54,062 bases of DNA, from positions 1 through 54,062 of the forward strand of contig CAJXTJ010000004.1 in assembly GCA_913061165.1 (NCBI GenBank), given 5' to 3'. This DNA is from an uncultured Polaribacter sp. (lineage in GTDB: Bacteria > Bacteroidota > Bacteroidia > Flavobacteriales > Flavobacteriaceae). Position 1 is the stretch's first letter. Each line of letters begins with the position of its first letter. Under the pieces are notes generated by a model. The model saw only the letters and a program-made list of their open reading frames with translations. It was not told the DNA's origin and made no database searches. Positions 17,196-31,971 of the stretch are shown here, piece by piece. Position numbers and translations under genes: made by a program.

Positions 17196-17205
17196 AAATA
17201 AATTG

Positions 17206-17279
17206 AGCCGATGGAGGGACTCGAACCCACGACCTGCTGATTACAAATCAGCTGCTCTAGCCAGCTGAGCTACATCGGC
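17206..17279 (-). tRNA. tRNA-Thr (anticodon TGT)
   Basis: On the minus strand, acceptor GCCGATG pairs with CATCGGC. The D arm holds GCTCAGCTGG, the anticodon stem-loop is CTGAT-TTGTAAT-CAG with anticodon TGT, and the T arm has GGTTCGAGTCC. No CCA is encoded. The 74-base length is normal. Confidence 0.96.
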
Positions 17280-17432: not shown

Positions 17433-18737
17433 TTAATTTAAGGCTTCTTTATAGGTTGCGAGACACCTTTCTCTTGCTTCTTTATGATCTACCATTTCTT
17501 TAGAGTATGTGAATTCTTGAAAATCTGGCACCCATTTTTTAATATAGGCTAAGTCGCTATCAAATTTTTTAATTTGAGTAGTAGGATTAAAAATTCTAAA
17601 ATAAGGTGCTGCATCTACACCAGAGCCTGCAACCCATTGCCAATTACCAATATTGCTGGCCATTTCATAGTCATGTAATTTTTCGGCAAAATATGCTTCT
17701 CCCCATCGCCAGTCTATTAATAAGTGTTTGCATAAAAAACTACCCACTAACATTCTAATTCTATTGTGCATAAAACCTGTTTCATTTAGTTGGCGCATTC
17801 CAGCGTCCACTAAAGGGTATCCTGTCTCGCCATTACACCATTTAAGAAATTCAGCTTCATTATTGCGCCAGTCAATTCTATCGTACTTTGCTTTAAAAGA
17901 TTTTTTTGATGTATGCGGAAAATGCCATAGAATTTGCATAAAAAATTCTCTCCAAATTAGTTCTTGCCAAAAAATCTCATTTTTTTCTGTAATCGCTTTT
18001 TCTATCATCTTACGAATACTAACCGTGCCAAAACGTAAATGCGGTCCTAGTTTAGAGGTAGCGTCTTGTGCAGGAAAGTTCCGTGTATCTTCATAATTTT
18101 GAATAAGCGCAGGTGTGACGATATGCTTTTTTATTTTTTGATTTGATTTTGTAAAACCAATATCAGATAAAGTTAAATTTGGTAGTTCTTTATCTTGTAT
18201 TAAGTTTTTTAAAAATGAACTGGTGTAGTAAAAATCTAAGGTGTATGTTTTGAATTGCTCTTTCCAGACCTTCATGTATGGCGTATATACTACATAAGGT
18301 AATCCATCTTTTTTAGTAACTTCATTTTGTTCAAAAATTACTTGATCTTTAAATGTTTTAAACTTAATATTATTATCATTTAATAATTGTTGAATTTTAT
18401 CATCTCTCTCTTTAGCATAGGGTTCATAATCTCTATTTGTAAATACGGTATCTATATTATATTTTTCTAATAGATTTTTGTATACAGCTTTTGGCTCTCC
18501 ATGAAACATGGCGATACTGCTACTATTTTTATCTTCTAATTTAGTACGCATTTTTTGAAGCGTTTCATAGATAAAAGTAAGTCTAGCGTCGTCTTTAGGG
18601 AGTTTTTTTAAAATTTCTTCATCAAAAATAAAGATAGGTAGCACCGGATGTTCACTTTTAAGCGCGTTATAAAATCCAACATTATCATCCAATCTTAAAT
18701 CTCTGCGAAACCAAAAAATATTTACAGTATCCTTCAT
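17433..18737 (-). CDS. phr: Class I-type deoxyribodipyrimidine photolyase
   Basis: Light-driven repair of cyclobutane pyrimidine dimers with FADH-. From ATG 18737 the product is 434 residues: an antenna-binding alpha/beta domain (FWFRRDLRLDDN at 7-18) and the helical FAD domain with DATSKLGPHLRFGTVSIR, WQELIWREFF, ETGYPLVDAGMRQLNETGFMHNR (family core) and NIGNWQWVAGSGVDAAPYFR. The WQW of the electron-transfer chain and DWRWGE are intact. I prefer 18737 over a start six codons upstream because the family begins at this point; it then lies one base after the SRPBCC stop. Last gene of the light-stress cluster. Confidence 0.93.
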   Translation of the reverse strand: MKDTVNIFWFRRDLRLDDNVGFYNALKSEHPVLPIFIFDEEILKKLPKDDARLTFIYETLQKMRTKLEDKNSSSIAMFHGEPKAVYKNLLEKYNIDTVFTNRDYEPYAKERDDKIQQLLNDNNIKFKTFKDQVIFEQNEVTKKDGLPYVVYTPYMKVWKEQFKTYTLDFYYTSSFLKNLIQDKELPNLTLSDIGFTKSNQKIKKHIVTPALIQNYEDTRNFPAQDATSKLGPHLRFGTVSIRKMIEKAITEKNEIFWQELIWREFFMQILWHFPHTSKKSFKAKYDRIDWRNNEAEFLKWCNGETGYPLVDAGMRQLNETGFMHNRIRMLVGSFLCKHLLIDWRWGEAYFAEKLHDYEMASNIGNWQWVAGSGVDAAPYFRIFNPTTQIKKFDSDLAYIKKWVPDFQEFTYSKEMVDHKEARERCLATYKEALN

Positions 18738-18738
18738 C

Positions 18739-19203
18739 TTATTTAATTTTACCAAAAAGTGCTAGTAATTTTTCTTGTCTGTAATTAAAAATTTCATCTA
18801 ATTTTGGTTTTACTAAAAAAGGGTGTACCATTTGACCTAGAATCCCTAAAGGAATTTTATAATCTATAATATCTTCTAATTCTACTCCACCTTCTATTTC
18901 TTTTACAAAATGCTTGTGATGCCAAAGAGCATAAGGTCCGTACATTTGCACATCTACAAAGTATTTTTTTTCCTCTATATGCGTAATTTCAGAGATCCAT
19001 TTTGTTTTAATACCTAAAAGAGGTGTTACATTATATTGAATTACCTGCCCTGTGTATAATGGTCTATCTATTTTAGAAAGAATATTAAAACTCATGTAAT
19101 CTGGTGTAATGATACTTAGATTTTTAGGGTTTGATAAAAACTCCCAAGCTGTATCCAATGAAATAGGCAGCTGTTGTTTCTTGTGAAGTGTGTATATTTT
19201 CAT
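18739..19203 (-). CDS. SRPBCC-fold ligand-binding protein
   Basis: 154-residue START/Bet v1-like protein of the polyketide-cyclase/SRPBCC superfamily: it opens YTLHKKQQLPISLDTAWEF and has the typical central YNVTPLLGIKTKWISEI and the final long helix EIFNYRQEKLLALFG. Homologues often accompany photolyases and SDR proteins in bacterial light-response clusters. The ligand is unknown. It sits one base from both neighbours, tspO and phr, so co-translation is likely. Confidence 0.8.
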   Translation of the reverse strand: MKIYTLHKKQQLPISLDTAWEFLSNPKNLSIITPDYMSFNILSKIDRPLYTGQVIQYNVTPLLGIKTKWISEITHIEEKKYFVDVQMYGPYALWHHKHFVKEIEGGVELEDIIDYKIPLGILGQMVHPFLVKPKLDEIFNYRQEKLLALFGKIK

Positions 19204-19204
19204 T

Positions 19205-19666
19205 TTAATTATGGACTAGAATATAGAGGTTTAAAGAAGTTGCTATGCATAGCCAAAGCATATAAGGTAGCAACAAGTATTTGTAATTATTTACTGCACT
19301 GCTTCGTTTGAAAAAATAAACAAATATAAGTGAAGTCAATAATAGAATATTTATAAGCGCAAATAATACGAGGTGCTGATTAAAGAAAATAAAATTCCAA
19401 CTGACATTGAGTACAAATTGAATTAGAAAAATAGTACGATTTTTACTTGTATTATCTTCTGTAAAAAGTTTTCCTAAATAAATGGAAAAGCAAATCATAA
19501 TAAGCGTCCAAGCAATGCCAAAAACAAAACCAGGTGGTGTCCAAGGAGCTTGTTGTAAATTTGTATACCAATTAGAAAGTGGGCCATTATTCATTAGCCA
19601 ACTCCCGATAGCTAAGCCACCAAAGTTTACAGCTAGAAATAATAGCATTAATTTTAATTGTTTCAT
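19205..19666 (-). CDS. tspO: TspO/MBR family membrane protein
   Basis: Five-helix membrane protein that binds porphyrins and, in some bacteria, degrades protoporphyrin IX in light. The 153-residue product has the family hallmarks GGLAIGSWL, WYTNLQQAPWTPPGFVFGIAWTLI, NVSWNFIFF and a tryptophan-rich loop; five hydrophobic segments span the chain. Length is typical (about 150-160). Position between a Lacal_2735-like gene (2 bases) and the SRPBCC gene (1 base) within a photolyase cluster fits a role in photo-oxidative stress. Confidence 0.94.
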   Translation of the reverse strand: MKQLKLMLLFLAVNFGGLAIGSWLMNNGPLSNWYTNLQQAPWTPPGFVFGIAWTLIMICFSIYLGKLFTEDNTSKNRTIFLIQFVLNVSWNFIFFNQHLVLFALINILLLTSLIFVYFFKRSSAVNNYKYLLLPYMLWLCIATSLNLYILVHN

Positions 19667-19668
19667 TC

Positions 19669-19842
19669 TTATTCCTCTGCTTTTAAAGCATCAATTTTCT
19701 TAAGGATATCGTCTGCTTCTTTATATTTAGAATCGCTATCGGTTCTATTTATAGATTGCAACTTATAGGCCTCTTCCATTACTTTTTTGTACTTGTCTTG
19801 AAGTTTGTCTGCTTCAGATTTTTTCTTAAAGATTCCGAACAT
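19669..19842 (-). CDS. Lacal_2735-type small protein (57 aa)
   Basis: Short gene read directly from the minus strand: it begins MFGIFKKKSEADKLQ and ends KIDALKAEE, with no cysteine or membrane segment. The whole chain is charged and helical, with a basic start (FKKK) and a heptad-like middle. It resembles the flavobacterial 'Lacal_2735 family' of about 55-60-residue proteins, whose function is unknown. It fills the space between the glutathione peroxidase (5 bases) and tspO (2 bases), which supports it being a real gene. Confidence 0.78.
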   Translation of the reverse strand: MFGIFKKKSEADKLQDKYKKVMEEAYKLQSINRTDSDSKYKEADDILKKIDALKAEE

Positions 19843-19847
19843 AGTTT

Positions 19848-20321
19848 TTAGATTAAGTGTTTTGTTATTTTCGAACTTGATGGCTTTGTAATTGAAAAAT
19901 AATAATCAACCAATTGACCTTCAGGAGAAACTAGATATTTTTGAAAATTCCATTTTACTGAAGAACTTTTAGAATTATTTAACGCTTTATCTGTTAGCCA
20001 GTTGTATAAAGCATGTTGCTTACTTCCTTTTACATCAATCTTTTCTGTTATTAAAAAAGTTACTCCAAAATTAACTTTACAGAAAGCTTCAATGTCTTCG
20101 GCAGTTCCTGGTTCTTGACTTCCAAATTGGTTACAAGGAGAACCAATGATCATTAAATTATCTTTATGCATTTTGTACAACTCTTCTAATTCTTTGTACT
20201 GAGATGTAAAGCCACATTTTGAGGCTACGTTTACAAAAAGAATATATTTGTTTTTGTACTCGAATAAGTCAATAGCTTTGTTTTGTAAGCTATTGATTTT
20301 GATGTTATAAATATCTGTCAT
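19848..20321 (-). CDS. Glutathione peroxidase family thiol peroxidase
   Basis: Reduces hydrogen and lipid peroxides; bacterial Cys-type members usually take electrons from thioredoxin. From ATG 20321 (MTDIYN) the protein has 157 residues, the usual length. The catalytic set is visible: Cys36 in ASKCGFTS, Gln65 in PCNQFGSQEPG, and Trp124-Asn125 in VKWNFQKYL. A longer reading from 20354 would overlap the SDR gene by 28 bases and adds nothing conserved, so it is rejected. It is cytoplasmic (no signal peptide) and lies 5 bases after the SDR gene. Confidence 0.92.
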   Translation of the reverse strand: MTDIYNIKINSLQNKAIDLFEYKNKYILFVNVASKCGFTSQYKELEELYKMHKDNLMIIGSPCNQFGSQEPGTAEDIEAFCKVNFGVTFLITEKIDVKGSKQHALYNWLTDKALNNSKSSSVKWNFQKYLVSPEGQLVDYYFSITKPSSSKITKHLI

Positions 20322-20326
20322 ACTTT

Positions 20327-21010
20327 TTAAATTTTGAAACTTACAATGCCACAATCAAGTTCGAAAATTTGGCCTGAAATGGATTTTGCTTTGTCTGAAA
20401 TAAGGAAAGTTGCTAAATCTGCAACCTCATTTGGTTTAAGGAACTTTTTAAGGGGATGACGTTCTGTGATACTCTCTATCATTCTATCATTTCTTAAAAG
20501 TTTAGATGCCAGATCTGTTTCTGTAACCGTTGGCGCAATTGCGTTTACACGTATCGTAGGGGCTAGTTCTGCACCTAAAGATTTAGCTAAACCTTCTACA
20601 GCAGATTTTGCGGCTGCCACACTTGCATGGTAAGGCATTCCTAATTTAGCAGCTACCGTGCTAAAAAGTAGGATGGAAGGGTTTTCTCCATTTTTTAATT
20701 TAGGAAGATATTTTTGAACTGCTTTTACAGCACCAATAACATTTATTTCAAAGTCTTCTCTAAAATCTTCTAATTTTAATCGTGAAATTGGTTTTAGATT
20801 AATACTTCCAGGGCAATAAATTAAGGTATCTATTGCTTCAATTTCTGGTAATTCGTCTGTAAGTATGTCACAATTATAATGAGTAAGGTTAGTGTGGGGC
20901 TGCAAAGGAGCTGTTCTACTAATATTTACAACTATATTCTCTTCAATTAAAGATTGCACAATCGCATTTCCAATTCCTTTGCTTCCTCCAACTACTACTA
21001 TTTTTCTCAT
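20327..21010 (-). CDS. SDR-family protein lacking the catalytic tyrosine
   Basis: 227-residue Rossmann-fold protein of the short-chain dehydrogenase family. The dinucleotide motif GGSKGIG (8-14), the DTLIYCPG segment, the structural Asn (INVIGAV, N90) and Ser117 (LFSTVAA) are present. In the YxxxK position the sequence reads VAAAK (V131, K135), with codon GTG for the valine; a tyrosine lies four residues earlier (MPYHAS) but is out of register. The C-terminal ISGQIFELDCG is family-typical. It may be a binding protein, or may use another residue. Similar SDR proteins with HASVAAAK are, from memory, found next to photolyases. Confidence 0.87.
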   Translation of the reverse strand: MRKIVVVGGSKGIGNAIVQSLIEENIVVNISRTAPLQPHTNLTHYNCDILTDELPEIEAIDTLIYCPGSINLKPISRLKLEDFREDFEINVIGAVKAVQKYLPKLKNGENPSILLFSTVAAKLGMPYHASVAAAKSAVEGLAKSLGAELAPTIRVNAIAPTVTETDLASKLLRNDRMIESITERHPLKKFLKPNEVADLATFLISDKAKSISGQIFELDCGIVSFKI

Positions 21011-21016
21011 ATACTT

Positions 21017-21232
21017 TTAAGGTCTTCCTTTCAAGCGCTTTTCAATTTTCTGTTTCACAGCTGTCAAGCGCTTCATTTGATCCATTATTTCAAGATCTTT
21101 TTCTATTTTATATACTTCGTTTAGCTCTAGAATAAGGGCTTTAACCTCTCTAGATGCTACAATTCTATCACTTGTTGTTTTAAATGAGAACTTTCTGTGT
21201 TCAAATTCTGCTGCGCGTTCCGTTAAATTCAT
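21017..21232 (-). CDS. Small charged protein, paralogue B (71 aa)
   Basis: Unrecognised family. The 71-residue chain is almost fully charged/helical, with no cysteine and no membrane segment. Conserved with its upstream neighbour are TTSDRI, a run of REvKaLILeLNE, and the basic end KRLTAVKQKIEKRLKGRP. By eye about 45 of 71 aligned residues match the 74-residue paralogue. The basic C-terminus could suit nucleic acid or anionic membrane contact, but this is a guess. It starts 74 bases after paralogue A and ends 6 bases before the SDR gene. Confidence 0.75.
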   Translation of the reverse strand: MNLTERAAEFEHRKFSFKTTSDRIVASREVKALILELNEVYKIEKDLEIMDQMKRLTAVKQKIEKRLKGRP

Positions 21233-21306
21233 TGTTACTTTTAAGATTTTATAAACGGTAATATAATTATAAAACTTAGAAGCGCAATAAAAATAATTAT
21301 TATTTA

Positions 21307-21531
21307 TTAAGAGGTAAGCGGTTTTCCTTTTAATCGTCTTTCAATTCTTTGCTTTATTACAGTTAATCTTTTCATGATATCCATAATATTAGAATCGTTA
21401 TTCTCTTTGTAAATTTCATTTAAGCCTAAGATCAAATCTTTTGCTTCTCTAGCGGCCATTATTCGGTCGCTTGTTGTAGGAAATCTCATTTTCCTAGTTT
21501 CAAATTCTAGTGCTTTTGTAATTAATTCCAT
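21307..21531 (-). CDS. Small charged protein, paralogue A (74 aa)
   Basis: Tandem paralogue of the 71-residue gene that follows. It begins MELITKALEFETRKM and shares TTSDRIMAAREAKDLIL, LNEIYKEN and MKRLTVIKQRIERRLKGKP. All helical by composition. It starts 2 bases after the folE stop, so it is in the folE transcript. Function unknown; presence of two copies inside a light-stress operon suggests a paired or heteromeric role, which is inference only. Confidence 0.75.
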   Translation of the reverse strand: MELITKALEFETRKMRFPTTSDRIMAAREAKDLILGLNEIYKENNDSNIMDIMKRLTVIKQRIERRLKGKPLTS

Positions 21532-21533
21532 AG

Positions 21534-22322
21534 TTAATATTTTAGGGTATTTTGTAATTCAGTAATCTTTTCCGGACTGTCAAATTTTCCACCAAAGTAA
21601 GATGTTACTGTTGCAGAAGTATCATCTTTAATACCTCTTGAAGAAACACATAGGTGTTTCGCATCTATTATTACTGCAACGTCTTTGGTATTTAAAATTG
21701 CTTTTAATTCTTCAGCAATTTGGTTTGTTAAGCGCTCCTGAACCTGAGGTCTCTTTGCATAATATTGAACAATTCTATTTAATTTTGATAATCCAATTAC
21801 CTTTCCTGAAGAAATATAAGCTACATGTGCTTTTCCTACAATTGGTACAAAATGATGCTCACAGTTAGAGTAGAATGTAATATTTTTTTCTACCAACATT
21901 TGATTGTATTGATATTTATTATCAAACAACGCTACTTTGGGTTTATTGGCTGGGTTTAATCCTGAAAAAATTTCTTCGATATACATTTTGGCAACTCTAT
22001 TTGGAGTTCCTTTTAAAGAGTCATCTGTTAAATCTAAGCCCATTACATTCATTATTTTAGAAAATAACACAGCTATTTTATCTTTTTTTTCGGCATCTGA
22101 TAATTTAAAAGCATCTGCTCTCATAGGAGTTTTTAGTCCTGTATAAAGATGGTCATCACCAATTTCTTCTGATGAAAATCCGTTAAATTTTCCTAAATTT
22201 TCTTTTGTTGCCAATGTATACGCTTTTATAGTTTTATTATCTTTTAGATATCGAGTTATTAGAGATGCTTCTTTGTCTAGTACATTTAAATCTCCCTTTT
22301 TCAAAAGTTCTGAGCTTTTCAT
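21534..22322 (-). CDS. folE: GTP cyclohydrolase I
   Basis: Makes 7,8-dihydroneopterin triphosphate from GTP, the first step to folates and pterins. Zinc and catalytic motifs are clear: YSNCEHHFVPIVGKAHVAYI, VIGLSKLNRIVQYYAKRPQ and KHLCVSSRGIKD. The conserved domain begins near EEIGDDHLYTG. The N-terminus is uncertain: ATG 22322 gives 262 residues but overlaps the previous gene by 86 bases in another frame; a TTG at 22214 gives 226 residues, close to the family length, and starts just past that gene. In this cluster FolE probably supplies the pterin antenna of photolyases as well as, or instead of, general folate. Confidence 0.92.
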   Translation of the reverse strand: MKSSELLKKGDLNVLDKEASLITRYLKDNKTIKAYTLATKENLGKFNGFSSEEIGDDHLYTGLKTPMRADAFKLSDAEKKDKIAVLFSKIMNVMGLDLTDDSLKGTPNRVAKMYIEEIFSGLNPANKPKVALFDNKYQYNQMLVEKNITFYSNCEHHFVPIVGKAHVAYISSGKVIGLSKLNRIVQYYAKRPQVQERLTNQIAEELKAILNTKDVAVIIDAKHLCVSSRGIKDDTSATVTSYFGGKFDSPEKITELQNTLKY

Positions 22323-22527
22323 GTTTAGTCTTTCTTCCTTGCACTCGTTTACGCCACATTTGAAAACTTTTCAGTTTCATTTCTCTTCGCATTAAATCGA
22401 TAACTTCTTGTTCTTTTAAACCGAATTGAAATTGAATAGACTCGAATGTGGTTCTGTCTTCCCAAGCCATTTCTATAATTCTATCTATAGAAATAGTACT
22501 TAATTGATCTGAACTATTGGAAATCAT
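22237..22527 (-). CDS. DUF2805 / TIGR03643 family small protein
   Basis: 96-residue protein of a family often found near photolyases. It has the conserved core IDRIIEMAWEDRTTFESI, QFGLKEQEVIDLMRREM, SFQMWRKRVQGRKTKH and the end RFKCTRQRSISNNSISKR, which I recall as conserved too, so the C-terminus is real and not a frameshift artefact. The helical arrangement resembles a helix-turn-helix with a basic arm, so nucleic acid binding is plausible but unproven. It overlaps the 140-residue gene by 14 bases and the long reading of folE by 86. Confidence 0.88.
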   Translation of the reverse strand: MISNSSDQLSTISIDRIIEMAWEDRTTFESIQFQFGLKEQEVIDLMRREMKLKSFQMWRKRVQGRKTKHEKLRTFEKGRFKCTRQRSISNNSISKR

Positions 22528-22936
22528 ATTGTTTGTTGTTTTCTATCTTGCAATTAATAATTTTATCTATAAATTTTTTGTTTTCTTTCAATAACTTATT
22601 ACTTTTAAACCTTACAAAGTTTCCTTGAGCATGTATACTAAACCCTTCAGTCTTGTATGTGTGCAATTGATAATAAGGTATTGCCCAACTAAAATTTTTT
22701 AAACCCTTATTAATATGAATTACGACACCTTTTTCTCTGAGTTCTATGTTACCATAATTAATATCGGAGACAGCATTAATTAATTTTAAAAACCCTGGAC
22801 TAACGGCATCAATGATCATTCTTTTAGATCCAACTCCACCTAGCTTTATCGCTTTAACAAAGCTGTAAGGCTGCCCTAACAAATCATTCATTGTTGCGGT
22901 AGCATCTTTATTTTTAAGAGTCGTGTTAAATATCAT
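22514..22936 (-). CDS. Unknown 140-residue protein, first gene of the second light-cluster operon
   Basis: I do not recognise this family. The product has no membrane segment or signal peptide; it alternates beta-type and helical segments (VKAIKLGGVGSKRMIIDA, KGVVIHINKGLKNFSWAIPYYQLHTY, GFSIHAQGNFVRFKSNKLL). A strikingly Trp/Tyr-rich stretch, FSWAIPYYQLHTY, and the sequence KGVVIHINKG suggest a compact beta-barrel-like domain, but this is only an impression. It starts four bases after a TATCTTTG box and carries the second TetR-type element upstream, so it leads an eleven-gene run to phr. Confidence 0.75.
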   Translation of the reverse strand: MIFNTTLKNKDATATMNDLLGQPYSFVKAIKLGGVGSKRMIIDAVSPGFLKLINAVSDINYGNIELREKGVVIHINKGLKNFSWAIPYYQLHTYKTEGFSIHAQGNFVRFKSNKLLKENKKFIDKIINCKIENNKQYDFQ

Positions 22937-22940
22937 TACT

Positions 22941-22948
22941 CAAAGATA
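22941..22948 (-). promoter_or_regulatory. -7 box of the second light-cluster operon
   Basis: Reads TATCTTTG on the minus strand, identical to the tetR box at 31511. Only four bases (AGTA) separate it from the ATG at 22936, so the transcript probably begins at or beside the start codon. The position expected for the -33 element falls in the palindrome at 22965-22992. Confidence 0.6.
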
Positions 22949-22964
22949 CAAAAAATATCATTAT

Positions 22965-22992
22965 GTTTAATGATTTATATATTTAGTTAAAC
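22965..22992. promoter_or_regulatory. Candidate TetR operator O2
   Basis: 28-bp imperfect palindrome with outer arms GTTTAA and TTAAAC separated by 16 bases. It has the same arms and the same length as the element at 31524-31551 (about 21 of 28 positions agree in the minus orientation). It covers the expected -33 position of the promoter for the 140-residue gene, 16 bases upstream of the -7 box. Confidence 0.6.
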
Positions 22993-23032
22993 AAAAATTA
23001 ACACATATTTGTATTTTAAGAAATCTTATAAA

Positions 23033-24523
23033 TTAATCAGTATTTAATAAGCTGTCTCTATTCGAAAGTGTGTGTTTTCTTAAAATCCTTTCACTTTCTT
23101 TTTTCACTTCAGTATTTTTTTTCATATTCCAGAGAATATCACTTGCTTTTTTTCTAGCAACTTTAATTTCTACAATCGGATTTGGGTAATCAACACCTAA
23201 TTCAAAATTATTAAATTGCTGATCTAAAGGTGTCATTAAATAAGGTTCGTGCACAAAAGGAGTTTCTAAGTGTGCTAATTCAGGAATCCATTTTCTAATA
23301 AATGTTCCATCTTCGTCATGTTCTAAGCTATTTTTTATTGGGTTGTATATTCTAAGAAGATTAATGCCCGTTTCACCGGCATTCATTTGCAATTGTGGAA
23401 AATGTATCCCGGGTTCAAAGTCTAAGAATAATCGAGACAAGTGCTGAGACGACGCTTGCCAAGGTTGCCATAAAATATGGGTAAAGAAAGAGACCAGCAT
23501 AGCGCGCATTCTAAAGTTTAAATACCCTGTTTCTGTTAAGCAACGCATGCAGGCGTCAATTAATGGAAAGCCGGTTTTACCTTCTTCCCAAGCTTTTTGG
23601 TATTCTAATGAAATACTCTTCTTTAGTTTTTGATACCCTTTATTTATACTTGCGTTTTCCATGGTGTGTTCCATTTCAAACTTTTGTATAAAGTGTGCTT
23701 GCCAGCGTAATCTTGAGATAAATGCACCCAAATGTTTTTTATTTATTGCTGTTTTACATTTTAAAGCTTCATTAAATACTTGGCGTATTGAAATGTTTCC
23801 CCAAGCAATATAAGGAGATAGCCTACTGCAACTTTCTCTAGCTAGTGCTGGTTTAGAGATATTAAACATGTATTTTTCATGGCGTTTATCAAAAAATGTA
23901 TTGGCATATCTCCAAGCTGTTCTTGTCCCTCCTTTTTGAAAATATTTGTGTTTGGGTGTTTTTAAATCTACTATTTGGAAATATTTTTCTAACTGCGTAA
24001 TTTCTTCAATTGAAATAAACTTAGCAGCATTATATTCGTTTTTAATTAGAGAATCATACATAAAATCGTCCCATTTGTCGAACCAATCTTCTCTATTTAA
24101 TAATCCTCGTAAAACACCATTGTTATTATTTTCAACCCAATTTACCGAATTGTTTCTGCAGTATCTTGTGAACTCTTTATCTCTATTGTAAGTGATTAAT
24201 AAACCTGTTTCTTGATGAGAAAATACGGTGTTTATTTTATAATAATTAAAAAGCTGGTTAAAAGTATTTACAACTTCGGTTTGCACACAAAGTACTTTTG
24301 TGTCGTATTTTTTTAAATCGGTATTTAAATCTGCTAAAGATTGTTTTATGAAATTCCAATGACGTTTATCGTAATGAGGATCTTCAATTAAAGAATCTTC
24401 AAAAACATATAAAAAAAGCACACGTTTGTTGGCTTCTAAAGCATTGTAAATTGCCTCATTATCCTGTAAACGCATATCGCGTTTAAACCAAACAACATGT
24501 ATTTCTTCTTTGTTAGTATTCAT
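23033..24523 (-). CDS. Cryptochrome/photolyase family protein, atypical class
   Basis: 496-residue flavoprotein with a photolyase N-domain (HVVWFKRDMRLQDNEAI at 9-25) and a helical FAD domain (LSPYIAWGNISIRQVF, GKTGFPLIDACMRCLTETGYLNFRMRAM). Where classical photolyases have NWQW, this one reads FPQLQMNAGETGIN, so both tryptophans are replaced (L, M), while a Trp in HILWQPWQ remains. Related proteins are, from memory, common in photolyase clusters of Proteobacteria and cyanobacteria; substrate specificity is not assigned. Its start overlaps the FeS photolyase gene by 11 bases. Repair or sensing are both possible. Confidence 0.88.
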   Translation of the reverse strand: MNTNKEEIHVVWFKRDMRLQDNEAIYNALEANKRVLFLYVFEDSLIEDPHYDKRHWNFIKQSLADLNTDLKKYDTKVLCVQTEVVNTFNQLFNYYKINTVFSHQETGLLITYNRDKEFTRYCRNNSVNWVENNNNGVLRGLLNREDWFDKWDDFMYDSLIKNEYNAAKFISIEEITQLEKYFQIVDLKTPKHKYFQKGGTRTAWRYANTFFDKRHEKYMFNISKPALARESCSRLSPYIAWGNISIRQVFNEALKCKTAINKKHLGAFISRLRWQAHFIQKFEMEHTMENASINKGYQKLKKSISLEYQKAWEEGKTGFPLIDACMRCLTETGYLNFRMRAMLVSFFTHILWQPWQASSQHLSRLFLDFEPGIHFPQLQMNAGETGINLLRIYNPIKNSLEHDEDGTFIRKWIPELAHLETPFVHEPYLMTPLDQQFNNFELGVDYPNPIVEIKVARKKASDILWNMKKNTEVKKESERILRKHTLSNRDSLLNTD

Positions 24524-26045
24524 CTAAGTGCTCTATGATATGATTTGCTTTTTCTTTTATTTTTGTCCTGTCTTCAGATGACATTTTATTTAGTAAACTA
24601 TACATCATTTTCATTCGGAAATTTGAAGATAATTTTTCTTGCTTCTCGTCTAAGAAATTCCAGTATAGCGTATTAAAAGGACAGGCGTCAGCCTCAAATT
24701 TCTTTGCTTTTTTATACACACATGCATCACAATAATTACTCATCTTACTAATGTAACTACCGCTAGATACATAGGGCTTAGTTGCTATTTTACCACCATC
24801 TGCAAACTGACTCATTCCTCTTGTATTGGGTAATTGAACCCATTCTATGGCATCTACATAAATACCTAAATACCACGCGTCTATTTCGTCTGGATGTATT
24901 TGTGTTAAGAGTGCAAAATTACCGGTAATCATTAAACGTTGAATATGATGTGCATATCCGTTTTCTAAGGAATTATTAATGGCATTTTTTAGGCAGTTCA
25001 TTTTTGTTTTTCCTGTCCAAAAGAAATCTGGTAACTTGTTTTTATTCTCAAAGAAATTTTCTTTTTTATAATCTGGCATTAGCATCCAATACATACCTCG
25101 CATGTATTCTCGCCAACCTAGTATTTGTCTTATAAACCCTTCTACTTGAGAAATATCTATAACATTTTCTTGCCTTCTATAGGTTTCTAAAACAGTTTCA
25201 ATAATTTCTTTGGGAGAAATCATCTTAGTATTCATAGCAAACGAAATTCTACTATGAAAAAGATAAATTTTGTCTGTATGCATTGCATCTTGGTAATCAC
25301 CAAAATGAACCAATAAGTGTTCGCAGAAATAGGCTAATTGAATTAAAGCCTGACTTCTAGAAATAGGGTATTCAAAATATTTAGAGTTGATTTTTCCGAT
25401 CGTTTTTATTTCAGCTTTTTCAATAGCATCAATAATATGGGTTACGTCTATATCGAAGCTAATTTCTTGAGGAATTAGCGCTTCTCCTTTCCATTTTTTA
25501 CGATTGCTGGCATCAAAATTCCATTTGCCACCTTCAGGTTGATTGTCAACTACTAAAATTTGATGTTTTTTACGCATATTGCGATAAAAATTTTCCATCA
25601 AAAATTGTTTTTTACCTTTGAAGAAAGTTTCTAAATCTGCTCTTTCTGTATAGAAATGTTCTGTAGAAAAAATTTTGGTTTCCAAATTTAAGTGCGCGGA
25701 AAATTCTTTTAATTGGGTATCTAGTCTATATTCATCGGGAGATAAATACTCAAATTTTTCAATATTTTTCTCTTTAAGCAACAAAGCTAAATTATCAACT
25801 AAGCTTTGTGTGTTTTTGGTATCATTTATATTGAAATAAACAACTTCATGATTTGATTTTTCTAAATCACTAGCAAAATTCCGCATTGCAGCAAAAAAAC
25901 CAACAACTTTCTGAATATGATGTGTTACATAATCTGTTTCTTGTCGCATTTCAAACATACAATAGGTAACATTCTCATTTGCTTCTAAAAACCAAGAATG
26001 TTGGCTGTTTAGCTGATCGCCAAGAATTAATCGTAATTTTCTCAT
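24513..26045 (-). CDS. Iron-sulfur photolyase (FeS-BCP, PhrB type)
   Basis: 510-residue member of the prokaryotic FeS-BCP class, whose characterised members repair (6-4) photoproducts with FAD, a 6,7-dimethyl-8-ribityllumazine antenna and a [4Fe-4S] cluster. The cluster ligands are visible: C351 (KMNCLKN), C439 and C442 (YCDACVYK) and C455 (DACPFN), the same spacing as Agrobacterium PhrB. The class N-terminus LRLILGDQLN and the FAD-domain segments NGYAHHIQRLMITGNF and WVQLPNTRGMSQFADGG are present. Starts one base after the Cry-DASH stop and overlaps the next photolyase gene by 11 bases. Confidence 0.95.
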   Translation of the reverse strand: MRKLRLILGDQLNSQHSWFLEANENVTYCMFEMRQETDYVTHHIQKVVGFFAAMRNFASDLEKSNHEVVYFNINDTKNTQSLVDNLALLLKEKNIEKFEYLSPDEYRLDTQLKEFSAHLNLETKIFSTEHFYTERADLETFFKGKKQFLMENFYRNMRKKHQILVVDNQPEGGKWNFDASNRKKWKGEALIPQEISFDIDVTHIIDAIEKAEIKTIGKINSKYFEYPISRSQALIQLAYFCEHLLVHFGDYQDAMHTDKIYLFHSRISFAMNTKMISPKEIIETVLETYRRQENVIDISQVEGFIRQILGWREYMRGMYWMLMPDYKKENFFENKNKLPDFFWTGKTKMNCLKNAINNSLENGYAHHIQRLMITGNFALLTQIHPDEIDAWYLGIYVDAIEWVQLPNTRGMSQFADGGKIATKPYVSSGSYISKMSNYCDACVYKKAKKFEADACPFNTLYWNFLDEKQEKLSSNFRMKMMYSLLNKMSSEDRTKIKEKANHIIEHLDEY

Positions 26046-26046
26046 A

Positions 26047-27357
26047 TTAAAACAATGTTTTTATCAACCATATTTTTCTAAATTTATGATTCCCATCATA
26101 TCGTTCTGCTTGCAGCTGGGTATTAAATTTTCGATCTCTCGGGTCGTTGCCAACACCAGAAACATACATCCAGTTTCCGTAATTGCTATGCACATCATAA
26201 TCTAATAGCATCGATTCAAAATACGCTGCACCAATTCTCCAATCTAAGAGAAGTTCTTTTGCAAAATAAGAAGCTACATTTTGTCTACCTCTGTTGCTCA
26301 TAAAACCAGTTTCTTTTAATTCAATCATATTGGCATTTACAAAATCGTCTTTTGTTTCTCCATGAATCCATTGATTAATTAACTGTTTGTCATAGCTCCA
26401 TTGGTAGTCTTTCTCTAAAATTCCACCAAGTTGAAAAACTTTAGCATTGTATTTTAAAGAGATGTATTTAAAATAATCTCGCCAAATCAATTCAAAAATT
26501 ACCCAATAGGTAGAGTCATTTGCACCAAACTTAGCCTCATATTCTTTAATTTTCCAATAGATAGTTTTAGCAGATAGGCTACCGTTTGCCAACCATGGCG
26601 AAAACTTTGTACTATAATCTACACCTAGCAATCCGTTTCTAGTTTTCTTATAAAAGCCAACCTTTTTAGTTTCAAAAAAATAATTCTTCAATCTTTCTAA
26701 AGCGGAAGTTTCTCCTCCAGAGAAAGGGAATGCTGTGTTTTCATGTACCTCAAAATCTTCAAAACCGAGGTCTTGTAATGTTGTAATTATTGTTTTATTT
26801 TCAATTAAATTTTCTGACGTACATTTTGAAACTTGAACTTCTTTCTGAATTTGTACCGTCTTTTCTAGTTTCTTTCTAAAAGCAGTAAACACATTTGGGA
26901 TGTTCGAAAAATCTTTAGAAACTGTAGTTGGATTGTATAAAAATTGATCGTTATCTTCCACAAAATTTACTGTTTCTGAAAGCGTATTTTTTATGAAATT
27001 ATTAGTAGTAACCTCTTCTTTTGTCCATTCCTTTTGCGTGTAAATAGTTTCAATTTCATAGGCATCACAAATCTCATGAAGTTTATCTTCAGGACTTTCA
27101 AAATAGGTGAGAAGCGTTATATTTAAATCTTCTAAATTCTTTTTTAAGTCTGTAACTGTCTCGATAAGAAACTTTGCACGGTATTTTGCTGTTTTCTGAA
27201 TTCCAAATTTATCAAATTCAAACAATTTCGGATCGAAGAAATATACTGCAATTACTTTTGTGTGGTTTTGTACGGCTTTTTTTATTGAGGTATTGTCATG
27301 AACTCGTAGATTATTACGAAACCAAATTAAGCTTGTGTTTTCTTGTTTCTTCTGCAT
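26047..27357 (-). CDS. Cryptochrome DASH
   Basis: 436-residue Cry-DASH: FAD and methenyltetrahydrofolate-binding photolyase that repairs CPDs in single-stranded DNA and may also signal. Diagnostic segments are [14 protein letters not shown] at 9-22, [68 protein letters not shown] and [21 protein letters not shown], with the class-typical end [16 protein letters not shown]. Its first 31 bases overlap the DUF2256 gene in another frame, so the start at MQKKQEN is coupled to that gene. The pterin antenna links it to folE in the same cluster. Confidence 0.95.
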
Positions 27358-27467
27358 TTTTCGCTACAATATTTTACATCATCCCAATTTTTCTCCCATT
27401 TTTTTCGCCAAGTAAAAGGCCGGTCGCATACGAGACATGTTTTTTCGGGTAGATGTTGTTTCTTCAA
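27327..27467 (-). CDS. DUF2256 zinc-ribbon protein (46 aa, TTG start)
   Basis: Tiny gene read from the minus strand: (M)[17 protein letters not shown], then [20 protein letters not shown] and RRNKKTQA. The CxxC...CxxxC pattern (C11, C14, C34, C38) and the WRKKWEK core are the DUF2256 signature; such proteins accompany photolyases in many bacteria, function unknown. No ATG is available: an in-frame stop lies three codons before the TTG at 27467, and the family starts MKK at this place. It begins 2 bases after the previous stop and its last 31 bases overlap the Cry-DASH gene. Confidence 0.87.
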
Positions 27468-27469
27468 AA

Positions 27470-28891
27470 TTATTTATTGATATTATTAATCATTCCATTA
27501 AAAACAAACCAATGGAAGGGTATTACAGAATACCAGTATAATCTACCAGCAAGGCCATGTGGCCTAAAAGTAGCTGTCTGATATATGTTGCCATCTTCTA
27601 TTTTAAACTCTAACCAGGCTTCTCCTGGTAAAATCATTTCGGCATATAATAGTAGTTTTCCTTTTTCTTTATCTGCATAAATAACCCGCCAAAAGTCTAA
27701 TGCATCACCAGAATTTAATTCTGTAGGATGTCTTCTTCCTCTTCTTAAACCTGCACCTCCATAAAACTGATCTACAATACCACGAATTTTCCAAAGAAAA
27801 GTACCATAATACCAGCCTGTCTCTCCGCCAATTGCCCAAATTTTATCTAGCGCCTCTTTTTTGTTTTTTACTTTTCTTTGTTTGAAGTCTTTAAAACAAC
27901 CGTGTTTAGGCACGTTAATAAACTCGTGAACATAGTTTTTTAATTTTCCGCTACTTATGTAGGAATCCTTCCAACTAGAAATAATACTATTTTGTTTTAT
28001 TTTTACAAATGCATATTCAACAGCTTGTTTGTATGACATTGGTTGAACATCTAAAATACTGTTGATATTGCTTTTATTACCAATAACTTCTACGCCCATA
28101 GAGTTCACCAAAGTTGTCGCCAGCTTATAAGAGGTCGAAGTAACAAAATACAACCAATAAGAGGATAGCTTGGGTGTCATTACTGGCACGGTTACAATAC
28201 GTCTTTTTAGTTTCCTTACTTCAGCGAATTGAAGCAGCATTTCTTTATACGTCATTATTTCCGGACCAAAAACATCATATGAGTTGTTGTACAATTCCTT
28301 TTTTTCGATAGCGCTGTGTAAAAAAGACAAAATATCTCGTATGCCTAAGGGTTGTGTTTTTGTATTTAACCATTTTGGGGCAATCATAAAAGGTAGCTTT
28401 TCTACAATATCTCTAATTATTTCAAAAGAAGAACTGCCAGAACCCACAATAATACCTGCTTTAAAAGTAGTTAATGCATATTTTTTAGAGGCCAATGTTT
28501 TTTCAACATTTTTCCTGGAAAGTAGGTGCTTAGATAGTTTTGTGTCGTTCGTGATTCCGCTTAAATAAATGGCTTGTTTTAGTTGAGACTGTTCTGCAAA
28601 CCTTTTAAAATTGAAAGCACATTTTTCTTCTAAAAGGTGAAATTCCTTTACTGAATTAGACATCGAGTGAATTAAGTAATAGGCAATGTCTATATCTTTA
28701 GGTATGTTTTCTAAGCTTTGAGAATTTAAAAAATCGGCCTCAACTAGAATTATATTTTTCCTGTCTTTAAAATAATTTTGTGCTCTTGTTTTATCTCGAA
28801 CTGCACACACCACAACATGCCCATCATTCAGTAAAAGAGGTATTAATCTTTTTCCAATATATCCGGTGGCACCTGTTACGAGAATCTTCAT
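27470..28891 (-). CDS. NAD(P)-binding epimerase-like protein with DUF2867 domain
   Basis: 473 residues. N-terminal atypical-SDR Rossmann domain ([16 protein letters not shown] at 5-20; [33 protein letters not shown]) followed by a C-terminal DUF2867 domain (about 310-473; [55 protein letters not shown]). Proteins of this layout are found in many photolyase and light-stress clusters; the reaction is unknown. It starts 5 bases after the flavin reductase-like gene and ends 2 bases before DUF2256. Confidence 0.88.
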
Positions 28892-28896
28892 ACACT

Positions 28897-29520
28897 TTAA
28901 CTTATTTTCTTAGGTCTTTGGTAAGACAGTTGTTTGTTAAATTGCGGAATTGCATAGGTGTCTAAACCATTTATGGCAGCTATGTTTCCTTTAGATAAAT
29001 TAATTAAGCCATCTTCTTGCAATAATGCGTCATCAATATACAACTCTTGAATTTGAGAAACAATGAGCATTACATCATTAGAAGGAACATATACTTCTTC
29101 TATAAATTTCATACTCATTTGTACTGGAGCACCTTTTACAAAAGGAGCTTTAAAATTTCCTTTGAACTCTTCTTCTAATCCAGTCATATCAAATTCTGAT
29201 ACTTCTTTTGGGTATTTTGCCGAGGTATGATGCGCATCTTCTATGATGTCTTGATGAATATGGTTTATTGTGAAAACACCTAAATCTTTTATATTTTTAT
29301 ACGTGTCTCTTGGAACAGTTGTAGGGCGTAAAATAAAACCTAGCGTAGGCGGCTTAGACCCTAAATGTGTAACCGAACTAAAAACAGCTACATTAGAAAT
29401 TCCTTCTTCCGATATGGACCCCAATAGATTTGCTGATTTAAAACCAGAACAGCTATTTATTAAATTTATTTTATAAATTTTTTCTAGGTTTTGTATGTCA
29501 TCAAAGTTGAAAAACGCCAT
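28897..29520 (-). CDS. Flavin reductase-like FMN-binding protein
   Basis: 207-residue protein of the split-barrel flavin reductase family (NAVFSSVTHLGSKPPTLGFI-like segment near 44-63, PRDTYKNIKDLGVFTINHI, HHTSAKYPKEVSEFD). Such proteins bind FMN and reduce free flavin or act as part of two-component monooxygenases. In this cluster it might keep FAD reduced for photolyases, which is inference. The ATG shares one base with the UbiB-like stop (TAATG), so translation is coupled. Confidence 0.83.
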   Translation of the reverse strand: MAFFNFDDIQNLEKIYKINLINSCSGFKSANLLGSISEEGISNVAVFSSVTHLGSKPPTLGFILRPTTVPRDTYKNIKDLGVFTINHIHQDIIEDAHHTSAKYPKEVSEFDMTGLEEEFKGNFKAPFVKGAPVQMSMKFIEEVYVPSNDVMLIVSQIQELYIDDALLQEDGLINLSKGNIAAINGLDTYAIPQFNKQLSYQRPKKIS

Positions 29521-30824
29521 TATAAACTTTTATAATTATTAATTTTAATTTCTTTTCCTTTTAAGTCGTGCATTAAATTATACAATCCGAAAAAGGTTCT
29601 GTTAATATAAATAAAGTGCTTAGAACCTCTATTACCATTCATGTTTTTTAATTCAGAGCTTTTCATGTACTTACTCCCTAAATCAGAGATTTGTCCAAAA
29701 AAGATAGCATCAGAAAAATCGAATTCCTCTTCATGAAAAGGTTGTGTAAATAAACTTAACATTTCATGAAACATACCTCTAAAAAAGTCTAATTCCTCCT
29801 CAGAATCGTCTTCTCTTAAGATTTCTAATTCATATAATTTTTGTTCAAAAAGTATAGGGTCATTAATACATTCTGGCTTGGCCAATTCAAAGTAAGGTGT
29901 GTAGAAGTCCATCGGAATCGTTTTCATACATCCAAAATCAATTACAATGAGTTCGTTTTCTGGAGATACTAAAAAATTTCCAGGGTGCGGATCTGCATGT
30001 ACCTTTTTCAAGGAATGAATTTGGAACATATAAAAATCCCATAAGGCTTGTGCCAACTTATTAGATATTTCTTGATCATTTGTAGAAAATTCAGACAAAT
30101 GCAATCCATTCATCCAATCCATTGTTATAATTCTATCCGAAGATAAATCAGCATAATAATTGGGGAAATTTAAGTGCGGTATGTGTTTGCATGCGGCAAC
30201 AATTGCAATACTTTGCTCCACTTCTAAAACGTAATTAGTCTCTTCAACTAGCTTGCTTTCTACTTCTTTAAAATATCTATCAGAATCTTTACCTCTAATA
30301 TTAAACATTTTAACAGCAATTGGCTTTACCATCGATAAATCTGAGGTAATACTATCTGCTATTCCGGGATATTGAATTTTTACAGCTAATTTTTTACCGT
30401 TTTTTTCTGCTCTATGCACTTGCCCTATGCTTGCTGCATTTGTAGAAACAGTATCAAACTTGTCATAAATTTCATTCGGATCTTTTCCAAAGTACCTTTT
30501 AAAAGTTTTAACCACTAAAGCCGGAGATAAAGGAGGTACAGAGAATTGAGAAAGTGAAAACTTTTCTACATACGCTCTCGGTAAAACACTTTTTTCCATA
30601 CTTAACATCTGTGCTACTTTTAAAGCACTTCCTTTAAGTTGTTGCAGGCCATTGTAAATGTCTTCTGCATTGTTTGTGTTTAACTTCTCTTTTGCTTCAA
30701 CTTCTGATTTGGTAAATTTGTCACCGTAATATTTTAAATAATTTACACCAATTTTTGCTCCAGTGGTTACTAATTTTGATGCGCGTTGTATTTTGGATGT
30801 AGGTATAGAATCTATTGTTTTCAT
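29520..30824 (-). CDS. UbiB/ABC1 atypical kinase family protein
   Basis: 434-residue protein kinase-like ATPase family linked to isoprenoid quinone and lipid handling. Visible motifs: the KxxQ motif in GSALKVAQMLSM (about 65-76), the A-rich loop in NAASIGQVHRA in place of the glycine-rich loop, the invariant Lys in LAVKIQYPG, and the catalytic-loop and metal motifs HADPHPGNF and IDFGCMKTI. No membrane segment is obvious at the C-terminus. It lies 6 bases after the tetR gene and is the first enzyme gene of the operon. Target lipid unknown. Confidence 0.9.
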   Translation of the reverse strand: MKTIDSIPTSKIQRASKLVTTGAKIGVNYLKYYGDKFTKSEVEAKEKLNTNNAEDIYNGLQQLKGSALKVAQMLSMEKSVLPRAYVEKFSLSQFSVPPLSPALVVKTFKRYFGKDPNEIYDKFDTVSTNAASIGQVHRAEKNGKKLAVKIQYPGIADSITSDLSMVKPIAVKMFNIRGKDSDRYFKEVESKLVEETNYVLEVEQSIAIVAACKHIPHLNFPNYYADLSSDRIITMDWMNGLHLSEFSTNDQEISNKLAQALWDFYMFQIHSLKKVHADPHPGNFLVSPENELIVIDFGCMKTIPMDFYTPYFELAKPECINDPILFEQKLYELEILREDDSEEELDFFRGMFHEMLSLFTQPFHEEEFDFSDAIFFGQISDLGSKYMKSSELKNMNGNRGSKHFIYINRTFFGLYNLMHDLKGKEIKINNYKSL

Positions 30825-30830
30825 TGCTTC

Positions 30831-31493
30831 TTAATTGAAGTTAACTTTTTCTTTTAAAATAAATTTCCCGAAATCAATAATGCTTTTTAATGGTTTTATA
30901 TCTAACAAGTCAAATCGAGCATTTACAGATTTTTCAATAAAAATATCTGTTTTTTCAAAAGAGGCAGAAGTGTCATCTAACCAGAATTTCATAGTAAGAA
31001 CTAATTGTATCCAAGAAGATTCTTGCGTAGCTTTATCTTGAATTTCACCTAATTTTTCTTGTTGAAGATCGATCTTCTCAATACCAATATTATTTGCAAA
31101 CGTTTTAAAGTCTTGTTTTAAATCTTTTAATAATTTTAAAGATTTTAATTTTATAACATTTTCATTACCCTCTAGCGCATACACAACGTAGCTTCTGTTT
31201 GCCGTTAGCATCTCAAAAAATGTAAAATAGAAGCTCAATAGTTTGTTTCGAGCATCGTAATTGGGATACTCTTCACTTTTAGCGAGCATCTTTATTGTAT
31301 TGTTAAAGAATTCACTAAAAATAGATTGTTCTATCGCTTCAAATGAACCATAGAATTTATAAAAATCAGCTTCTTCAAAATTGTTTTCTTTTGCGAAACT
31401 GAATACAGATTTAGGGTGGTGGTTGTGTTCTAGTACAAACTCCATGTACCAAGAAATTAAGTTGTCTTTACTAATGTTTTTCTTGCGAGCCAT
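30831..31493 (-). CDS. TetR-family transcriptional regulator, likely controller of the light-stress cluster
   Basis: 220 residues. The N-terminal 50 residues form a TetR-type helix-turn-helix (ISKDNLISWYMEFV, SVFSFAKENNFEEADFYKFYGSFEAIEQSIFSEFF), and the rest is the all-helical ligand-binding half ending in KSIIDFGKFILKEKVNF. The N-terminus diverges from textbook TetR. No cysteine pair or B12-binding motif is visible, unlike the LitR/CarH regulators of similar clusters elsewhere, so the signal may be a lipid or small oxidised molecule; that is inference. It is the first gene of the cluster and has a palindrome right over its own promoter, pointing to autoregulation. Confidence 0.82.
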   Translation of the reverse strand: MARKKNISKDNLISWYMEFVLEHNHHPKSVFSFAKENNFEEADFYKFYGSFEAIEQSIFSEFFNNTIKMLAKSEEYPNYDARNKLLSFYFTFFEMLTANRSYVVYALEGNENVIKLKSLKLLKDLKQDFKTFANNIGIEKIDLQQEKLGEIQDKATQESSWIQLVLTMKFWLDDTSASFEKTDIFIEKSVNARFDLLDIKPLKSIIDFGKFILKEKVNFN

Positions 31494-31510: not shown

Positions 31511-31518
31511 CAAAGATA
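31511..31518 (-). promoter_or_regulatory. -7 box of the tetR-led operon
   Basis: Reads TATCTTTG on the minus strand (TAnnTTTG), 17 bases before the tetR ATG. The palindrome begins five bases upstream and covers the place of the -33 element. Confidence 0.65.
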
Positions 31519-31523
31519 CGAAT

Positions 31524-31551
31524 GTTTAAGGAATTAACGAATTACTTAAAC
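31524..31551. promoter_or_regulatory. Candidate TetR operator O1
   Basis: 28-bp palindrome with outer arms GTTTAAG and CTTAAAC and inner AATT on both sides; 22 of 28 positions are self-complementary. It lies over the tetR -33 region. The same arms at the same spacing occur at 22965-22992. Confidence 0.65.
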
Positions 31552-31860
31552 AATAATATTTTCATAATTAGTGAAAGAAAAAGGAATTTAAATAGATCTT
31601 TGAATTATTCTTATTTATTGATTTTAAATTCTGTTTTTTATGCCATTTAATTTATATAAAGGCTATTATTGTTATATAGTCAATAAAATTTTACGAATAT
31701 AAGTTGTGCATAGTCGCTTTTATATAGGTTGTGAATTTTATCTTAATATTTAACTGGATTAAAGTTATTATAAAAAGGTAAAACGAATTAAAAGTATAAT
31801 TTTTAATTTTGTTTTATTTGTGACTAAATTTACAAGAAATATTTTATTTTATAAAAAGAT

Positions 31861-31894: not shown

Positions 31895-31896
31895 AG

Positions 31897-31971
31897 TCGG
31901 GGTGGCAGGATTCGAACCTGCGACCTCCTCGTCCCAAACGAGGCGCGATGACCGGGCTACGCTACACCCCG
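31897..31971 (-). tRNA. tRNA-Pro (anticodon TGG)
   Basis: On the minus strand, acceptor CGGGGTG pairs with CACCCCG, discriminator A. The anticodon stem-loop is CCTCG-TTTGGGA-CGAGG with anticodon TGG, and the T arm holds GGTTCGAATCC. No CCA encoded; 75 bases. Confidence 0.96.

Follow-up and report, generated by a model that had tools for sequence, protein, structure and literature searches.

The question raised by this locus is which regulator governs a long run of light-associated genes, and whether the signal it answers to is light or a small molecule. The locus lies in a 54,062 nucleotide stretch of contig CAJXTJ010000004.1 (the window, taken here at its full length) from an uncultured Polaribacter sp., the host genome being Polaribacter-like and spanning 2.3 Mb in 230 contigs. 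Nineteen genes occupy the minus strand between positions 17433 and 31493, with a TetR-fold gene (tetR; 30831-31493) at the head and a photolyase gene (17433-18755) at the end, flanked by tRNA-Pro (31896-31971) and tRNA-Thr (17205-17279). An earlier note, made from the sequence of the window, had read these genes as a single set under a TetR-type regulator that is triggered by a small molecule instead of sensing light. The cluster is real, and its order is conserved among Flavobacteriaceae; as to its control, it very probably answers to LitR, a CarH-like repressor of the MerR type that acts as a B12-binding photoreceptor and is encoded elsewhere in the same genome, beside crtI-crtB.

In the mechanism proposed, DNA binding by LitR, its response to light, its dependence on B12 and the direction of control are all modelled on the CarH family. 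In the dark, LitR carrying adenosylcobalamin would bind the sequence TTGTTTAA-N16-TTAAACA(A/T) at the promoters of tetR, crtI and u140 (a gene within the cluster that encodes a 140 aa protein), blocking transcription. Light would then cleave the cofactor and release LitR from the DNA, upon which the photolyases, the enzymes of pterin and flavin supply, the peroxidase, TspO and the products of lipid-associated genes would be made together with carotenoids. What looks like a TetR-controlled cluster would in this way become a predicted regulon of a B12 photoreceptor, defined by a precise site of 32 bp, and DNA photorepair would be tied to carotenoid synthesis in marine flavobacteria.

A shared inverted repeat at the cluster and at crtI

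Comparison of upstream regions reveals the site named above around 60 bases before tetR, followed by the box TATCTTTG. Candidates were scored out of the 16 half-site positions, with a match defined as at least 14/16 at a spacer of 16. In the discovery set, the site is found at all 16 tetR loci of the TetR-headed arrangement (type A, below), which derive from 15 genomes of the host's own genus. A wider test on named loci, which partly overlap the discovery-set genomes and include 16 named genera amongst those testable, recovers it at tetR in 79/79 cases with a spacer of 16 (the next-commonest spacer being found in 9 loci; L262 was left out, as its upstream region is too short). By way of control, this score is reached by 6 out of 1486 pieces of 200 bases drawn at random from these loci. 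Across 59 genomes the exact pattern produces 135 strand-hits, with symmetrical sites counted on both strands, versus a single hit for the reversed pattern. A second copy, before u140, is present in 11 of the 12 type A loci that hold this gene.

The Bacteroidota -7 consensus is TAnnTTTG, and a TAnnTT[T/G] sequence follows within 18 bases of the site in 78/78 loci tested (L262 and L232 being left out), which is weak evidence in AT-rich DNA. At tetR the site ends three bases before its -7-like box, and the crtI site spans the box, which reads TACCTTTG in the host genome.

Within the host genome, seven places lie within one mismatch of the site, three of which are those at tetR, u140 and crtI. Of the other four, one is the exact copy on C15 described below, one is inside a gene on C26, one overlaps a gene start on C64, and one stands 57 bases before a gene encoding a 312 aa product on C177. 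Allowing up to two mismatches yields 22 places, versus 11 for the control.

Some occurrences lie beyond the cluster and the crt genes. An exact site at C15:24328-24359 (L187) of the host genome stands 15 bases before a gene for an AraC-type regulator. In some relatives (L211, L218 and L147) the site precedes genes that we take to encode fasciclin-domain proteins, a possible further target of LitR. At L202, from a TetR-less genome of another family (G048), an exact site is located ~1 kb from the B12-domain match of litR, and the gene after it presumably encodes an ECF sigma factor.

LitR in the host genome

The earlier statement that no B12 regulator is present holds within the window, whilst the host genome carries LitR in two contig pieces. 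These were at first overlooked because a contig break splits litR: a B12-binding_2 search returned a frame of ~300 aa in 32 of 36 own-genus genomes, and in the host genome only a frame of 892 aa. The latter, read as MetH, had suggested that LitR was lost from the host, a reading rejected on the strength of the two pieces. With a relative's LitR as query, contig C40 was seen to carry residues 1-106 at its end and C140 to open with residues 128-290, followed by crtI and then crtB. The assembly break lies inside litR, and the two open pieces are kept separate here.

Over residues 1-106, the N-terminal piece (C40:15098-15415) shares 75% identity with a relative's LitR that matches MerR_1 (E=1.4e-15), as befits a MerR-type winged helix-turn-helix. 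A match to Thermus CarH (5c8d; E=4.8e-10) is likewise seen for a relative's LitR. The C-terminal piece harbours WQTDTILPAHEH and ENEIHDLG, corresponding to the W-x9-EH and ExHxxG motifs, respectively, with the ExHxxG form being read from an alignment with CarH. Two signature motifs, W-x9-EH and that for B12 binding, define CarH homologues according to a review (PMC8156234; this and the other papers cited by PMC number are represented by excerpts of their text). A gene for a cobalamin adenosyltransferase is likewise present in the host genome.

Does the site follow LitR or TetR?

A relative of TetR is present in 35 of the 59 genomes searched (host included), in several arrangements. Type A, in which TetR heads the cluster, accounts for 15/35, all of the host's own genus and some of them shortened or on partial contigs. 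In type B (8/35) the light-cluster genes have no adjoining tetR, and a tetR-ABC1 pair is instead found near udk, ~12 kb downstream or more, or on another contig in one genome; G021, counted as type A, has both pairs. In type C (8/35) the cluster, shortened in some, is continuous with litR and the crt genes, such that litR-crtI-crtB-crtZ-crtY-tspO-tetR-ABC1 and the genes that follow share a strand; some of these genomes have an additional gene behind litR. G038, G039, G041 and G052 (4/35) show other arrangements.

Of 36 testable genomes, 33 carry the site with a score of at least 14/16 in the litR-crtI interval (or overlapping the called crtI start), with G012 left out as its crtI lies outside the fragment; amongst the genomes with this site are G011, G020, G037 and G054, in which no TetR match was seen. 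The site is also present in 6/6 type B clusters with a visible head, these being headed by a flavin reductase-like gene (FlavR) without tetR (G004 and G006, whose head is outside the fetched stretch, were left out). By contrast, the relocated tetR-ABC1 pairs near udk reach no more than 12/16 within 200 bases in 9/9 loci, including the second pair of G021, and no type C tetR has the site at a spacer of 16. A sister family, f5, judged in this analysis to comprise relatives of Chryseobacterium, has a TetR match in 15 of 60 genomes (14 intact). In these 15 no full-length LitR was seen, only short MerR-like matches in some, and the site is absent at tetR in all 15 loci, with a best score of 12/16. 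One Chryseobacterium with light-induced carotenoids has been reported without car/lit operon genes, as far as the excerpted text goes (PMC7064467).

On balance, these comparisons suggest that the site goes with LitR and the light genes, not with TetR. It is assigned to the former because it is present at litR-crtI even in TetR-less genomes, and is not assigned to TetR because it is absent both at relocated tetR-ABC1 pairs and at tetR of f5 genomes without full-length LitR. The half-site TAAACA also appears to fit TnnACA within the CarH/LitR sites of Thermus and Pseudomonas, as these are given in the excerpts of PMC8156234 and PMC9758184.

A number of observations weigh against LitR as the owner of the site. 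In the window alone the sites are not outstanding, as two or more matches with up to three mismatches turn up in 30 of 100 shuffles. The litR-crtI interval is without the site in G023 and has only 13/16 in G010 and G007, the start of the host litR has none, and the right half-site seen at litR starts coincides with conserved start codons. At L096, with tetR away from the cluster, a 14/16 match overlaps the tetR start, and in G003, where the litR run encloses tetR, a 15/16 match with a spacer of 14 stands before tetR. No exact site is found in nine genomes that encode a LitR-like frame of ~300 aa (G022 from the host's genus, and eight from other families), although G022 and G054 amongst them have 15/16 sites; conversely, exact sites are found in G030 and G033, where no LitR-like frame was found in assemblies that are 53% and 68% complete, respectively. 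Spacing and symmetry differ from the operators described in the published excerpts (11-bp direct repeats; TGTACA-N12-TGTACA). Finally, the published LitR/CarH signature consists of GxxW, EH, GxxH and GxxxP (PMC11796333, excerpt), and the host LitR has GLLW, EH and GQNLP, with NEIH replacing GxxH.

Gene content and conservation of the cluster

The features of the cluster are as follows, in the direction of reading.

31522-31553, minus strand: operator-like inverted repeat 1, TTGTTTAA-N16-TTAAACAT, upstream of tetR (15/16 match, spacer 16)
31511-31518, minus strand: TATCTTTG, -7-like promoter box, read from the sequence after site 1
30831-31493, minus strand: TetR-fold protein (TetR_C_23; no TetR_N match)
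29520-30824, minus strand: ABC1/UbiB (COQ8-like) atypical kinase
28897-29520, minus strand: flavin reductase-like protein (FlavR)
27470-28891, minus strand: SDR-type NAD(P)-binding protein fused to DUF2867
27327-27467, minus strand: DUF2256 small protein
26047-27357, minus strand: DASH-type cryptochrome (CryDASH; TIGR02765, 474 bits against a cut-off of 317)
24513-26045, minus strand: FeS-BCP (6-4) photolyase-type protein (DPRP; 7ykn, E=1.4e-160)
23033-24523, minus strand: CRYb, divergent cryptochrome/photolyase (divergent FAD_binding_7 protein)
22963-22994, minus strand: operator-like inverted repeat 2, TTGTTTAA-N16-TTAAACAT, upstream of u140
22941-22948, minus strand: TATCTTTG, second -7-like box, read from the sequence after site 2
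22514-22936, minus strand: u140, 140 aa, no convincing family
22237-22527, minus strand: DUF2805/TIGR03643 protein
21534-22322, minus strand: GTP cyclohydrolase I FolE (start uncertain; 86-base overlap with DUF2805 as called)
21307-21531, minus strand: s74, small protein resembling s71 (translations compared by eye; no Pfam match)
21017-21232, minus strand: s71, small protein resembling s74 (translations compared by eye; no convincing Pfam match)
20327-21010, minus strand: short-chain dehydrogenase
19848-20354, minus strand: glutathione peroxidase (GPx)
19669-19842, minus strand: DUF6435 small protein
19205-19666, minus strand: TspO/MBR protein
18739-19203, minus strand: 154 aa protein, no convincing library match; presumably SRPBCC/START-like
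17433-18755, minus strand: PHR1, class I-like DNA photolyase (best solved matches 4u63, 1tez and 1owl)

The content that the earlier note had described is borne out: the 19 genes form one run on the minus strand and include four photolyase/cryptochrome proteins of different classes (PHR1, CRYb, DPRP and CryDASH), together with FolE, the flavin reductase-like protein, TspO, GPx, ABC1, two SDR-type proteins, DUF2256 and DUF2805, to which the DUF6435 protein can be added. Its tight spacing nearly throughout is correct for gaps of at most 6 bases or overlaps, with the exceptions of 96 bases between CRYb and u140 and 74 bases between s74 and s71. Because the 96-base gap contains the second operator-like site and its TATCTTTG box, the cluster probably comprises at least two transcription units. 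The genes s71 and s74 (21017-21531) are apparent tandem paralogues, with a single copy in some relatives.

Comparing gene order across Flavobacteriaceae, as the earlier note had proposed, finds the order conserved beyond what chance would give, and its idea of a jointly inherited gene set for light and photo-oxidative damage stands. Amongst 80 named loci, from Polaribacter, Arenibacter, Winogradskyella, Lutibacter, Olleya and others, an identical nine-gene run (TetR-ABC1-FlavR-SDR/DUF2867-DUF2256-DASH-DPRP-CRYb-u140) is present in 40, and litR lies within 10 kb upstream in 10, all of them Arenibacter. DUF2805 is present in 37 of the 59 genomes searched. One genome, G034, has a second DUF2805/CRYb/DUF2256/DPRP cluster (L106; G034:C1:2003000-2020000) with two operator-like sites.

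The TetR-fold protein and its ABC1 neighbour

The best reading of the TetR-fold protein is as a co-transcribed member of the cluster that stays beside the ABC1 kinase, and not as its main switch. The window protein shares 89% identity with its P. irgensii 23-P homologue and 99% with one from a metagenome-assembled genome, and ABC1 follows within 116 bases of TetR in 79/79 named loci that extend far enough. Its C-terminal domain is TetR_C_23 with invariant residues of its own, no TetR_N match is listed for any of 50 members, and its putative recognition helix looks acidic when read by eye.

The protein may be COQ9-like. It is tentatively possible that it is a non-regulatory, COQ9-like carrier of isoprenoid lipids that partners the ABC1/COQ8-like kinase, in an operon that LitR would still control. 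The constant pairing with ABC1 is consistent with this, but the COQ9 domain PF08511 scores 12.4 bits, below the cut-off of 20.5, and COQ9 is not listed at E≤10 when the sequence profile is compared with solved structures. A little more doubtful is the extended proposal that this lipid binder and its ABC1/COQ8-like neighbour constitute a bacterial COQ8-COQ9-type module, which would protect membrane isoprenoids under light and be induced by the B12 photoreceptor, the same pair standing divergent beside crtI in some of the Chryseobacterium relatives without full-length LitR. The ABC1 protein of the window (29520-30824) reads KVAQ at the position that we take to be the counterpart of the COQ8/UbiB motif KxGQ.

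A model in which TetR acts as the main repressor here, with a lipid, porphyrin or oxidation product as its signal instead of light, is unlikely. The TetR-fold gene does head the run in 15 own-genus genomes, as the earlier note had it for the window, and the protein is close in fold and sequence to the fatty-acid-responsive FadR, in a weak match over profile positions 1-137 that covers the helix-turn-helix. In f5, moreover, tetR-ABC1 is divergent from crtI in 7/15 loci (71-95 bases apart in four and 714-802 in three), and a short palindrome, AGTAAAATATTTTACT, stands before tetR at 15-16/16 in 4/15 (L311 and L313-L315), a group with no overlap with the four loci of close spacing; in this family, control by TetR and a small molecule may hold. 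A palindrome of TetR's own was also considered for the Polaribacter tetR promoter and rejected, as by eye only the LitR-type site looks conserved upstream. Against TetR as controller of the cluster, TetR lies within the litR-crt run of eight relatives, with LitR at the head of that run, and is missing from the cluster head in six other genomes with a visible head; the missing TetR_N match and the acidic-looking helix point the same way. TetR control, and with it the small-molecule trigger, is unsupported because the conserved promoter-proximal site is shared between the cluster and litR-crtI, TetR-less genomes included, and is absent at tetR of f5 genomes without full-length LitR, whilst LitR is encoded in the host genome itself. 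Since the site is tied to LitR and the light genes, TetR was rejected as the main switch, though it may have a secondary role in control.

Least probable is that the site belongs to a third factor governing the crt and repair genes, with LitR merely a neighbour: this would suit a site unlike the operators in the published excerpts and the exact copies in the incomplete G030 and G033, but not its presence at litR-crtI in 33/36 genomes, its absence from every f5 tetR locus without full-length LitR, or the fit of its half-site to TnnACA.

Control by LitR, as preferred here, leads on to two further questions, namely the role of the constant TetR-fold/ABC1 pair and the identity of the substitute for LitR in f5.

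Comparison with known systems

Like the CarH/LitR systems of Thermus, Myxococcus and Bacillus, as these appear in the excerpted literature, the host LitR has a MerR domain, a B12-binding domain, W-x9-EH and ExHxxG motifs, and crt neighbours. Whereas their operators are 11-bp direct repeats, the one predicted here is a single wide inverted repeat (TTGTTTAA-N16-TTAAACAA), which is also found at a large DNA-repair cluster. In Pseudomonas, PplR/PmlR (class II LitR) exert LitR-type control over light-inducible sets that include photolyase, cryptochrome, FolE and SDR genes, according to the available passages of PMC9758184, and the same kinds of gene are present in the cluster. Those regulators, however, use LOV photoreceptors and TGTACA-N12-TGTACA sites, whilst the LitR here is of the B12 type; the TetR-ABC1 pair, TspO, GPx and, in some relatives, an unbroken run with the crt genes also set the present cluster apart.

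With regard to the TetR-fold protein, its position adjoining an ABC1/UbiB kinase resembles the COQ8-COQ9 pair of ubiquinone biosynthesis, a likeness for which the sequence evidence is weak, and flavobacteria use menaquinone, unlike the ubiquinone setting of that pair. It shares the TetR fold and the weak match over profile positions 1-137 with the TetR-family FadR of Bacillus, but differs in its C-terminal TetR_C_23 domain and the invariant residues therein. No description of a LitR operator, or of how this cluster is controlled, was recognised for Flavobacteriia in the titles, abstract starts and passages of the open PMC literature. Relative to known LitR control, the site, the continuity with the crt genes and the membership of the TetR-ABC1 pair appear to be new.

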